Shown in pieces: positions 4,159-23,021 of a stretch of 24,706 nucleotides of DNA. This DNA is from a virus, in IMG/VR virus record IMGVR_UViG_3300011013_000088, positions 1-24,706 of that record. One strand, 5' to 3'. A program made the position numbers and the translations under genes. The first letter of the stretch is position 1, and each line of letters starts with the position of its first letter. The notes beneath the pieces are model-generated. The model had not been told where the DNA came from. It saw only the letters and a list, made by a program, of their open reading frames with translations, and did no database searches.

Positions 4159-4178
4159 GGTGCCTCCTCAAAGGACGA

Positions 4179-4619
4179 TCACTCGTCCGGATTGCCGCCA
4201 TGGATGGGGGCGTAGTCTGTCAAGATGAACGTCCACTCCCGAGTGCTCGCCTCGTCCGAAAGCTCGACGTCGGGGTCATCCGAGATAAACGCCTTGGACG
4301 CCTGCAATACGGTCGTCCCGGCCCTGTCCTGGACATAGAACACGCCCACGCCTTGACCGTTGACGGCCGCGCGGTCGGCCGCGTAGAGCGCGCTCAGTCG
4401 GTCGTTGACCTCGCTCGTCTGCATGAGCGTCACTTTCGCCTCGGCCACCTTCGAGTGACTCCGCGTGCGGGTCGCCTCCCCGTCGACACCCACCTTGACG
4501 CTAAAGCCCGGGGTGTCGCTGGAGATGGTAAGAAACGTTCCATCCGCCAGTCCCTCATTGATGAGGATCCCAGCAAAAATGATGTCATGCTTCCGAGGGT
4601 CGTAAGTCTTGAGTGCCAT
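4179..4619 (-). CDS. Tail tube protein (DUF3277-like)
   Basis: This 146-residue protein follows the sheath gene and matches the length and layout of DUF3277-type tail tube proteins. It opens with KTYDPRKHDIIFAGILINEGLADGTF split by beta turns, then TPGFSVKVGVDGEATRTRS, VTLMQTSEVNDRLSALY, and ends with REWTFILTDY. The VGVDGEATRTRS and LMQTSEVND patterns are typical of tube subunits that build hexameric rings. A strong GAGGAGGA ribosome binding site precedes the ATG at 4619, as expected for a protein made in high copy. The order sheath, tube, chaperone, tape measure is the standard contractile-tail order. Confidence 0.85.
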   Translation of the reverse strand: MALKTYDPRKHDIIFAGILINEGLADGTFLTISSDTPGFSVKVGVDGEATRTRSHSKVAEAKVTLMQTSEVNDRLSALYAADRAAVNGQGVGVFYVQDRAGTTVLQASKAFISDDPDVELSDEASTREWTFILTDYAPIHGGNPDE

Positions 4620-4634
4620 AGTTCAGGGTCCTCC

Positions 4635-5969
4635 TCAGACCGTAACGGTGCCAGCGATGTTGACGGTGTGGATCGCGCCCGCGAGCGTGCCCGCGAAGTC
4701 GATATCGCGAAGGATGCGCGCGGCCCTGTCGGCGGTAGCTTGGCTTGCGGCCGTCGGGAGCGTGACGCTCCAGCCCGAAGCGAGCACGCCGCGATCCTCG
4801 GCCTCCTGCAACTGCGCCGAGATCTCCGCGCCGATGACCGCGATCCCTGCGTCCGTGTAGGGGATTTTCGGGCTGTTCACCAGGGCCGAGAAGATCCGCT
4901 CTTCCATGCGCGCTTCGAGCCACGCGAGACCGCGGACCACGTCGATCCATTCCCCGCCAAACATCTTGCCCGGCCGAGTGATCCCCACGCCGGCCTCCGC
5001 CGCATAGTGGTTTGCCTTGTGCGCGCTCGCCTCGATCAACGCGCGTTCGGTCGGGGTCCAAGTGTCGGCCCCCACGCCCGCAAGCTGCTTGAACGCCCAC
5101 GTGGCGGAGCCGGGGTCCCGCGGGAGCATGTTCGAGAACCACGCGGCTTCTTTGAACGTGCTCCGAGGCTCCGCTGTAAACAGACCCCAGGCCGCATCAT
5201 TCGCCATCAAGGCCGTGTAGTCGGCGCCCGCGGTGAACTCGCCCGTGACGAACTGCGCCGGCTTCGTGTACTGCGGACCGAACCCACACATCCGATCATT
5301 GGTCAAGGCCCATCGGGCGACCTTGTCCATGTTCACCGGGGAGTTGTTCTCGACGCACACCGCGTAGAACTCGGGGTCCACGTTCAGGATCACGTCAAGC
5401 TGTGTGTCGTATGCCCATGTCGCGGATGTGTCTCGGACGTCCACGCCCTCGGTTGTGAAATCGTAGTAGAACTGCTGGCCCGCGGTGTCCGCGGTAGCGA
5501 CCACCACATCACCCGAGGGCGCGCCACACGTGAGCCCCGAGATCGCGCTAAGCGCGGTCTGTAGGTCGGTCATCGTGGTTGTCAGGTTCGTGTTCCAGGT
5601 AACGGAGATCGCCGTCACGGTGCCATCCGGAGAGGTCACCGATCCGACAATGTCCGTTGACGTCGCCATGTCGTTACCGTCGATCGACGTAGCCTGACCC
5701 GAGGCCGGGGTCGGCAAGCGACCGATCTTGATCGTGGTCGGTCGAGGGTCCTGCGAGAAGAACGCGGCCGCCGCGAGGTTGACCGTGCGCTGATTCGCGT
5801 CCGTTGCGGAAAAATCCGCCGCCACGCTGGAGAACGTGGTATAGCTGCGGACCTCGTTCGTGGCCCACGCGTCGTGAAACATGAGCAGGAGAGGCACGCC
5901 GAAGCCCGCCCGCGCGGGGTTGACGGTGCCCGCCTGGATTGATACGTTGACGATCTCGGAAAGTGCCAT
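4635..5969 (-). CDS. Tail sheath protein (DUF3383)
   Basis: This 444-residue protein is the contractile sheath, DUF3383 family. It starts with SEIVNVSIQAGTVNPARAG and GFGVPLLL, then RSYTTFSSVAADF, PRPTTIKIGRLP, and contains LGDYT-like sheath features such as VDPEFYAVCVENN in the middle. The C-terminal third (GITRPGKMFGGEWIDVVRG, then RIFSALVNSPKIPYTDAGI, then ISAQLQEAEDRG) is the conserved sheath fold that contacts the tube and neighbouring subunits. The length is normal for the family. The ATG at 5969 is preceded by AGGAG about 9 nt upstream. The presence of this gene is what shows that the phage is a myovirus. Confidence 0.9.
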   Translation of the reverse strand: MALSEIVNVSIQAGTVNPARAGFGVPLLLMFHDAWATNEVRSYTTFSSVAADFSATDANQRTVNLAAAAFFSQDPRPTTIKIGRLPTPASGQATSIDGNDMATSTDIVGSVTSPDGTVTAISVTWNTNLTTTMTDLQTALSAISGLTCGAPSGDVVVATADTAGQQFYYDFTTEGVDVRDTSATWAYDTQLDVILNVDPEFYAVCVENNSPVNMDKVARWALTNDRMCGFGPQYTKPAQFVTGEFTAGADYTALMANDAAWGLFTAEPRSTFKEAAWFSNMLPRDPGSATWAFKQLAGVGADTWTPTERALIEASAHKANHYAAEAGVGITRPGKMFGGEWIDVVRGLAWLEARMEERIFSALVNSPKIPYTDAGIAVIGAEISAQLQEAEDRGVLASGWSVTLPTAASQATADRAARILRDIDFAGTLAGAIHTVNIAGTVTV

Positions 5970-5992
5970 GGGGGTGCTCCTAGTCTAGCACG

Positions 5993-6544
5993 TTACTCGG
6001 TGACGGTGAACGGCCCCACGTTGGGCCCGTTCGTGATCGTGCCCTCGATCTCCGCCGCCTGGACGTAAGGCACGAGGGGGCCCGTCTTCGAGCCGTGCGC
6101 GTTGAATCGGACGTCCAGGACGACCACGGAACGAACCTTGCCCTTGCCGTCCGGCGCGTTGATCTGCCTCGGGGGCTCGACACGCGCCACGCCGAGGCCG
6201 GCCGTGTCAAGGATCGCCTCGACGTCGCTCTGATGGAGCCCGGCCGCGATGTCCTCGGCCGTTTGGAGCGCAGATGAGATCAAGTCCTGATCTCGCGTCT
6301 CGCATCGGATCGACACCACGAGCCTACGCGGCCCGTAGACGCGCTCACGGATGTCGTCCGAGCCCTCGGCCGTATACCGGCGCTCCTCGCGCCCCAGGGG
6401 CACGCTGGAGAGCACGGAGAGGCGCACGTGAGAGGCCGCGCGGTAGCGCGCCTCCCGATCGGTCCATCCCACGTCCGCGGTGAGGTCCCCGAGCGCGGTC
6501 TGCACAGCCAAGGGTAGCGCCGTCTGGATCGTCGCCCAGTCCAT
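5993..6544 (-). CDS. Probable tail terminator / neck protein
   Basis: This 183-residue protein lies between the tail-completion-like gene and the sheath, where tail terminator (neck gp12-like, LIC_12616 family) proteins are found. Visible parts are a helical start (IQTALPLAVQTALG), a beta-strand block RRLVVSIRCETRDQD, a helix ALQTAEDIAAGLHQSDVEA, and a strand SVVVLDVRFNAH. This alpha/beta order with LVVSIRCET and a final VLDVRFN strand matches tail terminators, which cap the tube and join it to the neck. The ATG overlaps the previous stop as TGATG. The call is by synteny and secondary-structure pattern, without a diagnostic motif. Confidence 0.6.
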   Translation of the reverse strand: MDWATIQTALPLAVQTALGDLTADVGWTDREARYRAASHVRLSVLSSVPLGREERRYTAEGSDDIRERVYGPRRLVVSIRCETRDQDLISSALQTAEDIAAGLHQSDVEAILDTAGLGVARVEPPRQINAPDGKGKVRSVVVLDVRFNAHGSKTGPLVPYVQAAEIEGTITNGPNVGPFTVTE

Positions 6545-7005
6545 CAGTCGTGGACCTTATGGGTGATGCTCGAACGGAGCTGACCGGTGTTGATCAGCGG
6601 AACGGATGAACCCTTGCGCTCGATCGTGCTAGGCGCGTTCGGCTCCAGCCCGTTGTCCGGAAAGTTGGCGATGTTCAACTGCACTTCACCTTGCAACCAA
6701 ACGCCGATCCGCTTGAGCGCTTGCGCTTGCGTGCGCTTGCCTTGGAGGACTGCCCGCGTCTCCCGCTCGATTCGGTCGAAGATCAGGCCCTCGTTCGAGT
6801 CCACCCAACCCCGGAGCCATGATCGCTCGGGCTGCCCGATCCCGAACTCCGCCCACTCCGCCACCTGCGCGACGGTGATCGGGGAGCCCTTGCCCGCCGG
6901 CTTCGAGCCCTCGCGCCCGAGCACCCCGACCGTTACGAACGACTTCCCCCGTTGGTTCGTCACGCGGAGCACGCGCGCGGCCCCGTTGTCCGTGACCTTG
7001 ATCAC
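6544..7005 (-). CDS. Tail completion / neck protein (HK97 gp10-like)
   Basis: This 153-residue protein ends with NAPSTIERKGSSVPLINTG then QLRSSITHKV. The pattern S-T-I-x-x-K-G-S-x-P-L-I-x-T-G-x-L-x-x-S-I is the signature of HK97 gp10-like and virion morphogenesis neck proteins, which help join head and tail. The middle holds VAEWAEFGIGQPERSWLRGW, a helical segment typical of the same group. I chose GTG at 7005 because it overlaps the upstream stop as GTGA; the open frame runs further upstream but that part only shadows the neighbouring gene. It acts in virion assembly in the cytoplasm. Confidence 0.75.
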   Translation of the reverse strand: MIKVTDNGAARVLRVTNQRGKSFVTVGVLGREGSKPAGKGSPITVAQVAEWAEFGIGQPERSWLRGWVDSNEGLIFDRIERETRAVLQGKRTQAQALKRIGVWLQGEVQLNIANFPDNGLEPNAPSTIERKGSSVPLINTGQLRSSITHKVHD

Positions 7006-12888: not shown

Positions 12889-12897
12889 AGCTTAGCA
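12889..12897 (-). promoter_or_regulatory. Extended -10-like element before the DUF2213 gene
   Basis: TGCTAAGCT ends 7 nt before GTG 12881, in the only gap in this part of the head operon. No Shine-Dalgarno site is visible. Confidence 0.4.
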
Positions 12898-15084: not shown

Positions 15085-15093
15085 AGCATAGCA
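15085..15093 (-). promoter_or_regulatory. Extended -10-like element before the portal gene
   Basis: TGCTATGCT ends 5 nt before GTG 15079 in the gap after the terminase gene. No ribosome binding site is visible, which supports this start and a leaderless transcript. Confidence 0.4.
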
Positions 15094-17824: not shown

Positions 17825-18021
17825 CGCCAATAGCTTTCATGTGCCAGCTCGGCAAGCTCGGAGAGCTTGTCCCCGAGCATGCCGACACCCACGCAAGCGA
17901 CGATCGCCACGAGGGCCGGAGAAGCGAGCGCAAGGAGCGCCCACCAAATCACGAGGCGCGCCGTGATCGCGTCCTCTGGGGGCGGGGTAGTACGGGCGGC
18001 GGTTCGGTAGGGTCCGGTCAT
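17821..18021 (-). CDS. Small protein with one transmembrane segment
   Basis: This 66-residue protein has a short polar N-terminus (TGPYRTAARTTPPPEDAIT), one long hydrophobic segment at about 23 to 50 (LVIWWALLALASPALVAI and onward), and a polar C-terminus (SELAELAHESYWR). This is a single-span membrane protein. It could be a small holin-like or accessory membrane protein, but no lysin or spanin is next to it, so lysis is not supported. The ATG at 18021 overlaps the phosphoesterase stop as ATGA. TATGGT with an upstream TGC lies 6 nt before the ATG, so it may also be made from a leaderless transcript. Confidence 0.72.
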   Translation of the reverse strand: MTGPYRTAARTTPPPEDAITARLVIWWALLALASPALVAIVACVGVGMLGDKLSELAELAHESYWR

Positions 18022-19235: not shown

Positions 19236-19846
19236 GTCAGTAGCCTAGCACGTCGATCCCGATCCCGTCGAGCGCGATCCGCTCGGTCGTTTCGTGCGAC
19301 CTGTCGAGCCTCGGCCCGATCCTCGCGCCGGAGCATCCGCCGCGTTCGAGCCGTTGCCGCGCGCCTCGCCTTGCGGTTCAAGCGTAGCGCGATCCCCGGC
19401 CCGCGCAAGGTGAGAACGGCCCGGCCCTTGAACCGTTCGGCCATGCTCGCGATCAGCGCGTCCACCTCCTCGGGTAGAGTGCATGTTTGGTGCGCGATCA
19501 CCCGGATCTCGTCGGGCCCCTCCAGGATCCCGCGGTAGAACTCGATCGACCCTCGGATCTGTTCGGCCTCCACAGCCAGAGAAAACTTGCCCTCCTCCAG
19601 GCCGGCACTTAGCCGATCCCAAGTAGCGGTGAGCGCTCGAATCTGATCCCGTGCGTCCGCGTGCGTTTTCGTCCACGCGACCACCACGAACGGGGCCGCC
19701 TGCTCCTCGGGGATCTCTTCCAGCTCGGGGAGATCCTTCGTGAACATCGCACGGAGCATCGCATACATGCGATGGAGCCACGCCAGCGCGCCGCCCTCGT
19801 CCACCTTCTCACTCGCGCCCTTTTTCAGGGCTCTCATCTTGTCCAT
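19232..19846 (-). CDS. Unknown protein with very basic C-terminus
   Basis: This 204-residue protein is not recognised. The N-terminal half is mostly helical and acidic (MYAMLRAMFTKDLPELEEIP). The middle has an alpha/beta feel (PFVVVAWTKTHADARDQ, EIRVIAHQTCTLPEEVDAL). From about residue 155 it is extremely Arg-rich (LRLNRKARRAATARTRRM, then RADRARRDRDRRAR), a nucleic-acid-binding type tail. It precedes the phosphoesterase, with a GTGA overlap, and has a strong ribosome binding site (GAGGAG) 5 nt before ATG 19846. A DNA-binding packaging factor or small terminase is possible by position, but no family pattern supports it. A hairpin sits in its leader. Confidence 0.72.
   Translation of the reverse strand: MDKMRALKKGASEKVDEGGALAWLHRMYAMLRAMFTKDLPELEEIPEEQAAPFVVVAWTKTHADARDQIRALTATWDRLSAGLEEGKFSLAVEAEQIRGSIEFYRGILEGPDEIRVIAHQTCTLPEEVDALIASMAERFKGRAVLTLRGPGIALRLNRKARRAATARTRRMLRREDRAEARQVARNDRADRARRDRDRRARLLT
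19242..19250 (-). promoter_or_regulatory. Extended -10-like element before the phosphoesterase gene
   Basis: TGCTAGGCT ends 6 nt before GTG 19235. A weak -35, TCGACG, lies 18 nt upstream of TAGGCT. No ribosome binding site is present. Confidence 0.4.
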
Positions 19847-20277: not shown

Positions 20278-20468
20278 CGGATCCTCCATTGATCTGTGAA
20301 GTGCACACGCCTTGCGTGTCCACAAGTGAGCCGCGCTACGCGCGTACCGTCGACGTCGGGCCGGTCCCAGAATAGAACAGACCGGAGCGGCCCCTTGAAG
20401 CGCTGCGCCCGGAGGCGCGCGCGCCACACCGCGGGCCCCCGAGGGGCGAGCGCGCTAGGCCGGGACAC
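20241..20468 (-). CDS. Small unknown protein with Cys/His motif
   Basis: This 75-residue protein ends with RLTCGHARRVHF, then RCTSDYCAPC. The set Cys-x-x-His and Cys-x(5)-Cys-x-x-Cys resembles a small zinc-binding fold. The N-terminus is basic (SRPSALAPRGPAVWRARLRA). GTG 20468 is chosen because GGAGG lies 5 nt upstream and the gene overlaps the preceding one by 14 nt. The frame is open further upstream but that part shadows the neighbour. The role is unknown; it could bind nucleic acid. Confidence 0.6.
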   Translation of the reverse strand: MSRPSALAPRGPAVWRARLRAQRFKGPLRSVLFWDRPDVDGTRVARLTCGHARRVHFTDQWRIRCTSDYCAPCAR

Positions 20469-20682
20469 GAGGGCCTCCAGTGTACCACAGGGACGTGAAC
20501 TCGCCGATCGCGATCTCGACGTGCCCGAACGCGCGCGCGGTGTCGACGTGTACCACGGCGAAGATCCCGTGCGGGCGTTCAATGAAGTAGTCAAGGCGCC
20601 CCATGCCCTCGCCGGCAACGGGGACCCGTGTGCCTGCTTTGTAGGTCTCCGCGAGGCGCTTGATCTCGTTCGTGTTCGTCAT
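20455..20682 (-). CDS. MTNTN-family small protein, paralogue 1
   Basis: This 75-residue protein begins MTNTNEIKRLAETYKAGTRV. Its pattern RL..TY.AGT..PV...G.GRLD.F is repeated in the protein at 21382-21579, and both end with F.SLW, so the two are paralogues. Its sequence suggests a small beta-rich fold (IFAVVHVDTARAFGHVEIAI). The ATG overlaps the previous stop as ATGA, but a good promoter (TTGACG, 17 nt, TAAGGT) lies inside the upstream gene with only 6 nt between TAAGGT and the ATG. A leaderless transcript may therefore start at this gene. The function is unknown. Confidence 0.72.
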   Translation of the reverse strand: MTNTNEIKRLAETYKAGTRVPVAGEGMGRLDYFIERPHGIFAVVHVDTARAFGHVEIAIGEFTSLWYTGGPRVPA

Positions 20683-20864
20683 GTTCTTACCTTAGTCCGG
20701 GTCCGAGGGTTCGTCAAGGGCTGAATCGGCTCATTTGCGACGCGCGCTCGGTGCCCCTGGTCTCGGGCGCATCGGGCCACAGAAGCGGCCCCGGCCTTGG
20801 TCTCGCATACCGCGAGCATGCGGAACGGGAGCCCGTTCCGCGAGACGTAGACATACCAGTTCAT
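20679..20864 (-). CDS. Small unknown protein
   Basis: This 61-residue protein begins with a strand-like block (NWYVYVSRNGLPFRMLAVCE) followed by a helix (TKAGAASVARCARDQG), a compact alpha/beta look. The C-terminal tail (PIQPLTNPRTRTKVRT) is basic and encodes the promoter of the next gene. It overlaps both neighbours by ATGA. No family is recognised. Start ATG 20864 is secured by the overlap. Confidence 0.68.
   Translation of the reverse strand: MNWYVYVSRNGLPFRMLAVCETKAGAASVARCARDQGHRARVANEPIQPLTNPRTRTKVRT
20689..20717 (-). promoter_or_regulatory. Promoter for MTNTN paralogue 1, inside the upstream gene
   Basis: TTGACG (20712-20717) and TAAGGT (20689-20694) are 17 nt apart, with AAGAAC between the -10 and ATG 20682. 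The whole promoter lies inside codons of the gene at 20679-20864. Confidence 0.62.
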
Positions 20865-21100
20865 GCGCCGATGCTCGCGCGCCAGGAGCGACGGACCTCG
20901 ATCTCCTCGTCGCTGAGGCTCGCGTGCCAGGCGCGACGGGCCTTGATCTCCTCGCTGATGTAGTGGGCCCGGGCCGCGCGAAAGGCGGGGAGGGCGCGGG
21001 TTTCGGCGGGGAGAGCGTCAAAGGCCGCGACGCAACGGTTGGCCGCGAGGAGTGCCAGGCGAAAAGCGGAGAGGGCGGGGTTCGTGTTCGTGTTCGTCAT
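20861..21100 (-). CDS. MTNTN-start small helical protein with tandem repeat
   Basis: This 79-residue protein starts MTNTNTNPALSAFRLALLA and is helical throughout. Its last third holds a tandem repeat of about 15 residues: SEEIKARRAWHASL then SDEEIEVRRSWRASI. The repeat is amphipathic and basic/acidic, like a small coiled segment that might bind nucleic acid or self-associate. Upstream is a promoter-like pair, TTGACG and TACGGT, 17 nt apart, with 6 nt to the ATG. There is no ribosome binding site. The stop overlaps the next ATG. Confidence 0.7.
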   Translation of the reverse strand: MTNTNTNPALSAFRLALLAANRCVAAFDALPAETRALPAFRAARAHYISEEIKARRAWHASLSDEEIEVRRSWRASIGA

Positions 21101-21106
21101 GTTCTT

Positions 21107-21135
21107 ACCGTAGCTCGGGGTTCGGGGCTCGTCAA
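21107..21135 (-). promoter_or_regulatory. Promoter for the MTNTN gene at 20861-21100
   Basis: TTGACG (21130-21135) and TACGGT (21107-21112) are 17 nt apart, with AAGAAC between the -10 and ATG 21100. The AAGAAC-ATG part is identical in the promoter at 20689-20717. Confidence 0.62.
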
Positions 21136-21148
21136 GAGTTATTTTCGA

Positions 21149-21328
21149 TCAATCGTTCCAGCCGCGGAACCGGCGCACGCGGGGCGCGCCCGCGGGATCG
21201 GCCTTGGCCGCGCGGCGGTCCGCGCGCGCGGCCGCGCGCTTGGCGTAGCGACGGCTCCCGGCCGTCGAGTAGCGGCCGATCTGTTCGGCCGTCGGGGTTC
21301 GGTTCGTGCGCTTGTTCGTGTTCGTCAT
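21149..21328 (-). CDS. MTNTN-start small basic protein (59 residues)
   Basis: This 59-residue protein begins MTNTNKRTNRTPTAEQIGRY, then is dominated by Arg and Ala (RRYAKRAAARADRRAAKAD) and ends RRFRGWND. The charge is strongly positive, so nucleic acid binding is likely. It starts with the same five residues as three neighbouring genes and has a strong promoter-like pair TTGACA and TAGTGT, 16 nt apart, with 6 nt to the ATG. The gap before the next gene is 48 bp and carries that gene's promoter. I derived the frame codon by codon; no stop interrupts it. Confidence 0.68.
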   Translation of the reverse strand: MTNTNKRTNRTPTAEQIGRYSTAGSRRYAKRAAARADRRAAKADPAGAPRVRRFRGWND

Positions 21329-21334
21329 GTCCGT

Positions 21335-21362
21335 ACACTAACCCGGCCCGAGCCCCTGTCAA
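21335..21362 (-). promoter_or_regulatory. Promoter for the 59-residue MTNTN gene
   Basis: TTGACA (21357-21362) and TAGTGT (21335-21340) are 16 nt apart. Only 6 nt separate the -10 from ATG 21328, so the transcript would start at or next to the ATG. Confidence 0.6.
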
Positions 21363-21382
21363 GGGCTCGGGCGGACTTTTTT
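21346..21382 (+). terminator. Terminator-like hairpin on the plus strand, loop holding a -35 element
   Basis: A 10-bp perfect stem (GCCCGAGCCC, loop CTGTCAA, GGGCTCGGGC) is followed on the plus strand by GGAC and six T residues. This is a textbook terminator shape, but no plus-strand gene precedes it. On the minus strand the loop contains TTGACA of the promoter for the gene at 21149-21328, so the same DNA may serve as an operator or block antisense transcription. Confidence 0.5.
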
Positions 21383-21579
21383 CAGCGTGCGCGCCAGAGT
21401 GACAGGAACGCCCGAAGCGGGATTCGGACGGTCTCCCCGTCCACGGTCACGAGGGCGTGACTACCCGAGGGGGTGAACCCGTCGAGCCGGCCGCGCGTGC
21501 CGGTTGCGGGCACGGGGATCGTGGTCCCCGCCCGGTAAGTGTTGCTCAGTCGCGCGCCCTTGTTCGTGTTCGTCATCAT
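21382..21579 (-). CDS. MTNTN-family small protein, paralogue 2
   Basis: This 65-residue protein (MMTNTNKGARLSNTYRAGTT and onward) is a paralogue of the gene at 20455-20682: both have RL..TY.AGT..PV, GRLD.F, a V.VD strand and a final F.SLW. It is shorter by a segment near the end. The start is set at ATG 21579 because that overlaps the upstream stop as ATGA and places TACTGT exactly 6 nt upstream, as in the sister genes. Codons for residues near GARLSNTYRAG lie in the 31-bp sequence that recurs at 22991-23021. The function is unknown. Confidence 0.72.
   Translation of the reverse strand: MMTNTNKGARLSNTYRAGTTIPVPATGTRGRLDGFTPSGSHALVTVDGETVRIPLRAFLSLWRAR
21529..21559. repeat. 31-bp exact direct repeat, copy 1
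   Basis: This copy is inside the MTNTN paralogue 2 gene and is read in that gene's frame as GARLSNTYRAG. It is identical to 22991-23021, and the flanks on both sides differ, so the identity stops abruptly. This copy looks like the original because it fits the protein family. Confidence 0.92.
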
Positions 21580-21938
21580 GTCCCCACAGTAGCCCGGGTT
21601 CGGCGCCCGGTTCCAATCTTTTTCGGGTCCCAGACCGAAAAAGATTGGAACCGGGCGGGACCGCATCCGCGGAGGCGCGGAACGAGCGAGTCCCGGAACA
21701 CGAGCCGGCCCTTGCCCCCGTCGTGGCGTGTCCAGGTTGCCGTGAGAACGCCCGAGGCCGCGTCCAGGCTCAAACGGTGCTCCCGCACCTTGCGGGGCGT
21801 TAGGAGGGCGCCTAGCTTCGAGAGCCGCACGCGTTCGATCCCACGGAGGGGGGAATCGGCAGAGGGCTCGAACACGAGCCACGTGGCGCGGCCGCGCGTG
21901 TTCGAGCGGAGTTGAGCGAGCGTGATCGGTTCGTGCAT
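21576..21938 (-). CDS. Small unknown beta-rich protein
   Basis: This 120-residue protein is not recognised. It has a helical start (HEPITLAQLRSNTRG), a beta-like core (RATWLVFEPSAD, RLSLDAASGVLTATW) and an unusual C-terminus (SFSVWDPKKIGTGRRTRATV), which is encoded by a 23-bp perfect inverted repeat. The last part may therefore be an insertion or overrun past an older stop. The stop overlaps the next ATG as ATGA. Just before ATG 21938 lies a terminator-like hairpin with no clear ribosome binding site, so the start is uncertain. Confidence 0.62.
   Translation of the reverse strand: MHEPITLAQLRSNTRGRATWLVFEPSADSPLRGIERVRLSKLGALLTPRKVREHRLSLDAASGVLTATWTRHDGGKGRLVFRDSLVPRLRGCGPARFQSFSVWDPKKIGTGRRTRATVGT
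21586..21591 (-). promoter_or_regulatory. -10-like element for MTNTN paralogue 2
   Basis: TACTGT lies 6 nt before ATG 21579, the same spacing as in the sister genes. The -35 is weak: TTGGAA at 19 nt, inside the inverted repeat arm. Confidence 0.45.
21604..21657. repeat. 23-bp perfect inverted repeat with 8-nt spacer
   Basis: The arms 21604-21626 and 21635-21657 are exact reverse complements, with spacer GTCCCAGA. It lies in the 3' end of the gene at 21576-21938 and next to the -10-like element of the following gene; a weak -35 (TTGGAA) falls inside one arm. The transcript would fold into a very stable hairpin. It could be an operator, an RNA element or a remnant of a small mobile element. 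Confidence 0.9.
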
Positions 21939-22990: not shown

Positions 22991-23021
22991 CGCCCGGTAA
23001 GTGTTGCTCAGTCGCGCGCCC
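22991..23021. repeat. 31-bp exact direct repeat, copy 2, at the end of the Asp-box gene
   Basis: This copy spans the stop codon of the Asp-box gene (TGA at 23008-23010) and the start of the following gap. It is read in a different frame from copy 1. Its right edge touches a 17-bp Asp-box DNA repeat (23020-23036, also at 23149-23165). It marks the place where gene style changes. Confidence 0.92.

Follow-up and report, generated by a model that had tools for sequence, protein, structure and literature searches.

Four small genes of a virus held in IMG/VR, starting at 20682, 21100, 21328, and 21579, encode the same first residues, MTNTN, behind similarly arranged upstream bases, which raises the question of what this common start is and how the genes behind it are expressed. 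The DNA analysed here (the window) is the whole record of 24,706 bases, with a GC content of 66% and almost every gene on the minus strand. Matches to the TerL, portal, MuF, protease, major head, tail sheath, tape measure, and baseplate families identified a contractile-tailed phage. Among the best matches, the TerL of cultured phages was at most about 40% identical to that of the window, and no close prophage was found when 84,980 species genomes were searched with exonuclease and TerL profiles, the best candidate being a Hyphomonadaceae MAG with a TerL identity of only 26%.

The four starts are marked by a 15-base sequence, ATGACGAACACGAAC, identical on the minus strand at 20682, 21100, 21328, and 21576 and present nowhere else in the window; the observed number of near-matches to it was reached in none of 100 shuffles. 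The fourth gene begins with ATGATGACG at 21579 (MMTNTN). As stated in the original prediction, each start follows a TANNGT hexamer placed exactly 6 nt before the ATG, its first T lying 12 nt before the ATG. These putative -10 elements, all on the minus strand, are TAAGGT at 20689..20694 (gene 20682), TACGGT at 21107..21112 (gene 21100), TAGTGT at 21335..21340 (gene 21328), and TACTGT at 21586..21591 (gene 21579, where the 6 nt lead to the first of two ATGs, ATGATG). The -35 elements proposed for three of the genes were also recovered on this strand: TTGACG at 20712..20717 for gene 20682 (spacer of 17 nt), TTGACG at 21130..21135 for gene 21100 (17 nt), and TTGACA at 21357..21362 for gene 21328 (16 nt). 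Three genes out of four thus display the TTGACA-like -35, the 16-18 nt spacer, and the TANNNT of a sigma-A/sigma-70 promoter; gene 21579 has no good -35, with just TTGGAA at a spacer of 19.

Throughout the window, the minus strand has TTGACR-N16..18-TANNNT only at the 20682, 21100, and 21328 sites. The complete pattern, TTGACR-N16..18-TANNNT-N6-ATG, was observed three times, versus a mean of 0.003 and a maximum of 1 in 300 dinucleotide shuffles. The anatomy and the statistics of these start blocks, hereafter cassettes, are established for the window, and a chance origin was ruled out by the shuffles.

Two inverted repeats were observed in the same region. A terminator-like hairpin on the plus strand, at 21346-21372, carries the TTGACA of gene 21328 in the loop of its 10-bp inverted repeat. 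The other inverted repeat, with perfect 23-bp arms and a loop of 8 nt, occupies 21604-21657, immediately upstream of 21579 and at the expected place of the -35; it may represent a terminator or an operator, or else a fold-back artefact. Rfam gave no match and no tRNA was found.

The four genes had been described as lacking a ribosome binding site. This was confirmed for 21100, 21328, and 21579, upstream of which no Shine-Dalgarno sequence of at least five bases is present; it does not apply to 20682, where the bases TAAGG occur 7 nt ahead of the ATG, within the gene's own -10. Two of the starts overlap an upstream ORF as ATGA, as had also been noted, and the other two have no overlap; a gene that begins with ATGA, however, itself supplies the TGA of such an overlap, whatever the gene. 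The leaderless mRNAs put forward in the original prediction are strongly supported at the level of sequence, namely by a spacing above chance, by the cassettes of a relative, by orthologous starts, and by the literature. When TANNNT was positioned relative to 34 likely gene starts of the window, the profile showed a peak at a gap of 6 nt (7 occurrences versus 0.09 expected) and almost none elsewhere. Because of this excess, leaderless starts appear to reach past the four MTNTN genes. The three further starts with TANNNT at this gap are 19235, 18021, and 17542; those at 18021 and 17542 may be coincidental, since the former falls within a coding sequence and the latter shares bases with a stop codon and is preceded by AGGAG.

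The coding parts beyond MTNTN had been said to differ. This is the case for MTNTNTNPALSAF... (79 aa, 20861..21100, minus strand), which bears no relation to the other three, and for the small basic MTNTNKRTNRTPT... (59 aa, 21149..21328, minus strand): past the first five residues, neither matches the other or the remaining pair. That pair, MTNTNEIKRLAETYKAG... (75 aa, 20455..20682) and MMTNTNKGARLSNTYRAG... (65 aa, 21382..21579), both on the minus strand, consists of paralogues homologous over their full length (48% identity, E 4e-15), so that their shared start is not independent. The upstream DNA tells another story, as the most similar sequences are those of 20682 and 21100 (33 of 43 aligned positions, 77%, over about 42 nt), whose coding parts are unrelated; the promoters of the true paralogues 20682 and 21579 are less alike. 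Since the closest promoters precede unrelated proteins and those of the paralogues are less close, the comparison indicates that cassette and coding part have separate, uncoupled histories.

A second putative promoter class was recognised in the window, where GTGCTANNCT occurs four times, each time directly before a gene (exonuclease, portal, protease, and sheath), versus 0.15 in shuffles. These extended -10 elements are located on the minus strand, the coordinates 5982, 12889, 15085, and 19242 being the low ends of TGCTANNCT. They comprise TGCTAGGCT at 19242..19250, 6 nt before the exonuclease GTG (19235); TGCTATGCT at 15085..15093, 5 nt before the portal GTG (15079); TGCTAAGCT at 12889..12897, 7 nt before the protease GTG (12881); and TGCTAGACT at 5982..5990, before the tail sheath gene (5969), which has a short leader with AGGAG. 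Several of the starts are GTG codons without a Shine-Dalgarno sequence. The exonuclease and portal elements are conserved in the relatives L035 and L036 (TerL identity of 67-70%), neither of which spans the small-gene region: in both, as in the window, TGCTANNNT lies 5-8 nt before the orthologous starts. It also lies 6 nt before the portal start of L255 (portal identity of 48%). The exonuclease and portal starts of L035 and L036 offer an independent, comparative test of leaderless starts, and the structural and exonuclease genes appear to use this extended -10 class, TGCTANNNT, and to be mostly leaderless too.

The cassettes themselves were recovered in a further relative, L122 (TerL identity of 51%), which covers its non-structural region. 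It contains eight TTGACN-N17-NANNNT-N6-start cassettes (shuffle maximum of 1), all on the strand opposite the structural genes; both promoter classes are present, separated by strand. The cassettes precede small unrelated proteins, including those with MTKNKTETK, MKTTTNK, MNKTATRK, and MSKTIK, and in one case a 794-residue Prim-Pol protein (PF09250, E 3e-30). Two pairs of promoter twins, 17796/14456 and 7843/1331, have 14/17 and 13/17 identical spacer bases, respectively, and unrelated coding parts. Because the L122 copies all stand on the strand opposite the structural genes, in front of small genes and Prim-Pol, the cassette class is probably early, a timing judged from gene content and strand in this one relative. 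Of 163 contigs related more distantly through TerL and exonuclease, 138 had no cassette.

Viral contigs were also scanned for the promoter pattern, with the pattern read backwards as a control, which gave zero in every record. Arrays of 3-4 cassettes were present in unrelated contigs (G005, G006, and G008); three cassettes were counted in the L230 record. In L210, three near-identical predicted leaderless promoters were found at 4172-6600; in two of the copies, the promoter is shared together with 11 initial codons (MGTTTRTDQEA), the copied block reaching 33 nt past the start, beyond which the proteins are unrelated. One of these two proteins had a weak DNA-binding PHROG match. A search of viral contigs for MTNTN preceded by TANNGT-N6, along the lines recommended in the original prediction, returned 30 stretches, most of them without a -35 and many from AT-richer phages or short frames. 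A clear exception was the L010 record, which has four cassettes, of which one places MTNTN behind TTGACA-N17-TAGAGT-N6 and a second precedes a helix-turn-helix-like protein (assigned by eye). Among cultured phages, no cassette was found in phiC31, Mx8, P23-45, or TM4 and a single one in Gordonia phage GTE2, so dense arrays are no general trait of GC-rich phages.

The original prediction of a mobile or duplicated module in front of unrelated genes is therefore retained in part. Duplication before unrelated genes is supported by the 20682/21100 pair, the L122 twins, and L210. Mobility, in the sense of a transposing element with terminal repeats, a transposase, or target duplications around each copy, received no support: the repeat search gave a 51-nt start block alone as the shared unit, with no flanking repeats common to the copies.

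The codons after the ATG, described beforehand as CA-rich, were indeed enriched in A+C: over codons 2-6, the fraction was 0.72 for 19 independent cassette genes versus 0.60 for other genes of the window (P 0.0006). When the predicted messages were folded, the first 18 bases were unpaired with a probability of 0.89, versus 0.58 for 27 other window genes. CA multimers after the start codon raise the expression of leadered and leaderless mRNAs in E. coli (PMC4611024). The A/C-rich tag is best read as a sequence predicted to keep the 5' end of the mRNA open, and its necessity would depend on the host. For leaderless genes of mycobacteria, a 5' ATG or GTG is enough by itself, and these genes displayed no preferred downstream sequence (PMC4633059); the tag may accordingly be a legacy of descent and not a requirement.

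We consider it very likely that the four blocks are duplicated leaderless promoter-start cassettes, probably early, with A/C-rich codons that keep the 5' end open. We infer from the arrangement that host RNA polymerase would read TTGACR and TANNGT, or TANNGT alone at 21579, and that transcription would start at or beside the A of the ATG, since only six bases part the -10 from the start codon. A 70S ribosome would load straight onto the 5'-terminal AUG with no need for a Shine-Dalgarno sequence, the invariant ACG AAC ACG AAC keeping the message unpaired over its first ~18 nt. Every small gene would have its own promoter, and duplication would be the route by which promoter and start were copied to unrelated small genes, unless they were retained before them.

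Other readings of the block were weighed against this one. If it were a phage regulatory site, with a repressor or activator bound from the -10 to codon 5 in the manner conceivable for stoperators or start-associated sequences, the constraint on the 15 coding bases would be explained: 15/15 bases are the same in the four genes, codon choice included (chance of about 0.002 given MTNTN), ACGAAC forms a tandem 6-mer, and the copied block of L210 also enters the coding part. The block, however, is not palindromic and is absent elsewhere in the window, and L122 holds the spacing constant and varies the codons (MKTTTNK, MTKNK, and MAHQEE), so the coding part is no fixed site across relatives; we regard a regulatory site as improbable. 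Longer mRNAs started upstream, translated through ATGA coupling or a weak Shine-Dalgarno sequence with TANNGT as a degenerate ribosome binding site, seem more improbable still. Neither TACGGT, TAGTGT, nor TACTGT pairs with the anti-Shine-Dalgarno, and TTGACR at 16-17 nt, which has no role in translation, recurs in L122 and in unrelated contigs; the two ATGA overlaps agree with this reading, as does the TAAGG before 20682, which could act as a weak Shine-Dalgarno, but the other two starts have no overlap.

The original prediction had also named homology along the whole length of the proteins as a finding that would count against it. Such homology could account for MTNTN in the paralogues 20682 and 21579 and is contradicted for 21100 and 21328. 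Full-length paralogy of all four genes was excluded, 21100 and 21328 being unrelated beyond the start, and the closest upstream DNA is that of the unrelated 20682 and 21100; recent whole-length paralogy as the only source of the common MTNTN is thus extremely unlikely.

Leaderless expression is already known in several bacterial phyla, as are two promoter classes within one phage; the new element, on present sequence comparisons, is the duplicated phage cassette. In M. tuberculosis, TANNNT located 7-12 nt upstream of the transcription start is the mapped -10, and leaderless genes make up ~26% (PMC3898074). Across bacteria, a TANNNT ~12 nt ahead of the start codon is used to classify a gene as leaderless, with shares of about 20% for Actinobacteria and 40% for Deinococcus-Thermus (PMC3160421), and in Deinococcus this motif drives leaderless genes and is strengthened by a -35 at about 17 bases (PMC12340547). 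The genes of the window resemble these in their TANNNT 6 nt before the start, the lack of a Shine-Dalgarno sequence, and the small size of their proteins (PMC3160421, PMC3898074, PMC12340547). In those bacteria, however, the promoters are single and genome-wide, whereas in the window the promoter, the start, and the first codons are near-copied before unrelated genes, with near-consensus -35s.

In Thermus phage P23-45, gp39 shuts -10/-35 promoters, and the middle and late promoters are extended -10 (PMC7403470). The window would be similar in having two putative classes in one phage, with -10/-35 promoters in front of small genes that are probably early and extended -10 promoters in front of structural genes; it differs in that TTGAC-N16..18-TANNNT-N6-ATG is absent from P23-45, and the sequences are unrelated. 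The SAS/ESAS of cluster K mycobacteriophages are short repeats at the starts of small non-structural genes, conserved between relatives; SAS is the 13-bp GGGATAGGAGCCC, situated 3-7 bp upstream of start codons; its core is ribosome-binding, and the role proposed for it is in translation (PMC3203893). The window likewise has short repeats at small-gene starts; unlike SAS, its repeat is a putative promoter without a ribosome binding site that enters the coding part, and GGGATAGGAGCCC was not found in the upstream sequences of the four genes. The lambda cI message begins at AUG; cI, unlike the genes of the window, is a single gene without a repeated cassette. Leaderless initiation was first found in lambda (PMC3160421). 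In a literature search, we did not find a promoter, start codon, and N-terminal tag repeated as one block before unrelated small genes.

It is conceivable, and we propose it only tentatively, that some phages multiply promoter, start, and N-terminal tag as a unit that activates any small ORF behind it. This would give arrays of leaderless early genes with one promoter per gene, in which new small proteins would arise already equipped with a start and share their N-terminus. Most small genes that phages express early are orphans, and how they come to be expressed is poorly understood; if a leaderless start block can be copied, this would account for unrelated ORFs being brought under early control at once. 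The signature TTGACN-N17-TANNNT-N6-ATG followed by A/C-rich codons would help, in phages whose hosts translate leaderless mRNAs, to locate genuine starts and small genes missed by annotation, and would suggest leaderless-translating hosts for uncultivated phages.

As for the four small proteins, none had a significant Pfam or PHROG match, and neither viral contigs nor cultured phages yielded relatives of their genes, save for a single 23-residue match to 21100. The 20682 protein was predicted to form an SH3/Tudor-like barrel (mean pLDDT of 79, pTM of 0.66). The top Foldseek matches were RNAP-binding Tudor-like domains (CarD, CdnL, and UvrD), with E values of 0.04 or worse, and VIA-align returned many unrelated SH3-like folds at Z < 7; the predicted likeness to RNA-polymerase-binding domains is a lead only, and no function is claimed. 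Gene 20861-21100 contains a tandem 45-nt duplication at 20866-20954, with copies 86% identical, which doubles about 15 residues. Finally, an exact 31-nt direct repeat was observed at 21529-21559, inside gene 21579, and at 22991-23021. The second copy lies exactly at the 3' end of the tail-like gene 23757-23008, whose last repeat is shortened (ITWARD*), and the repeat looks like a recombination or assembly junction.
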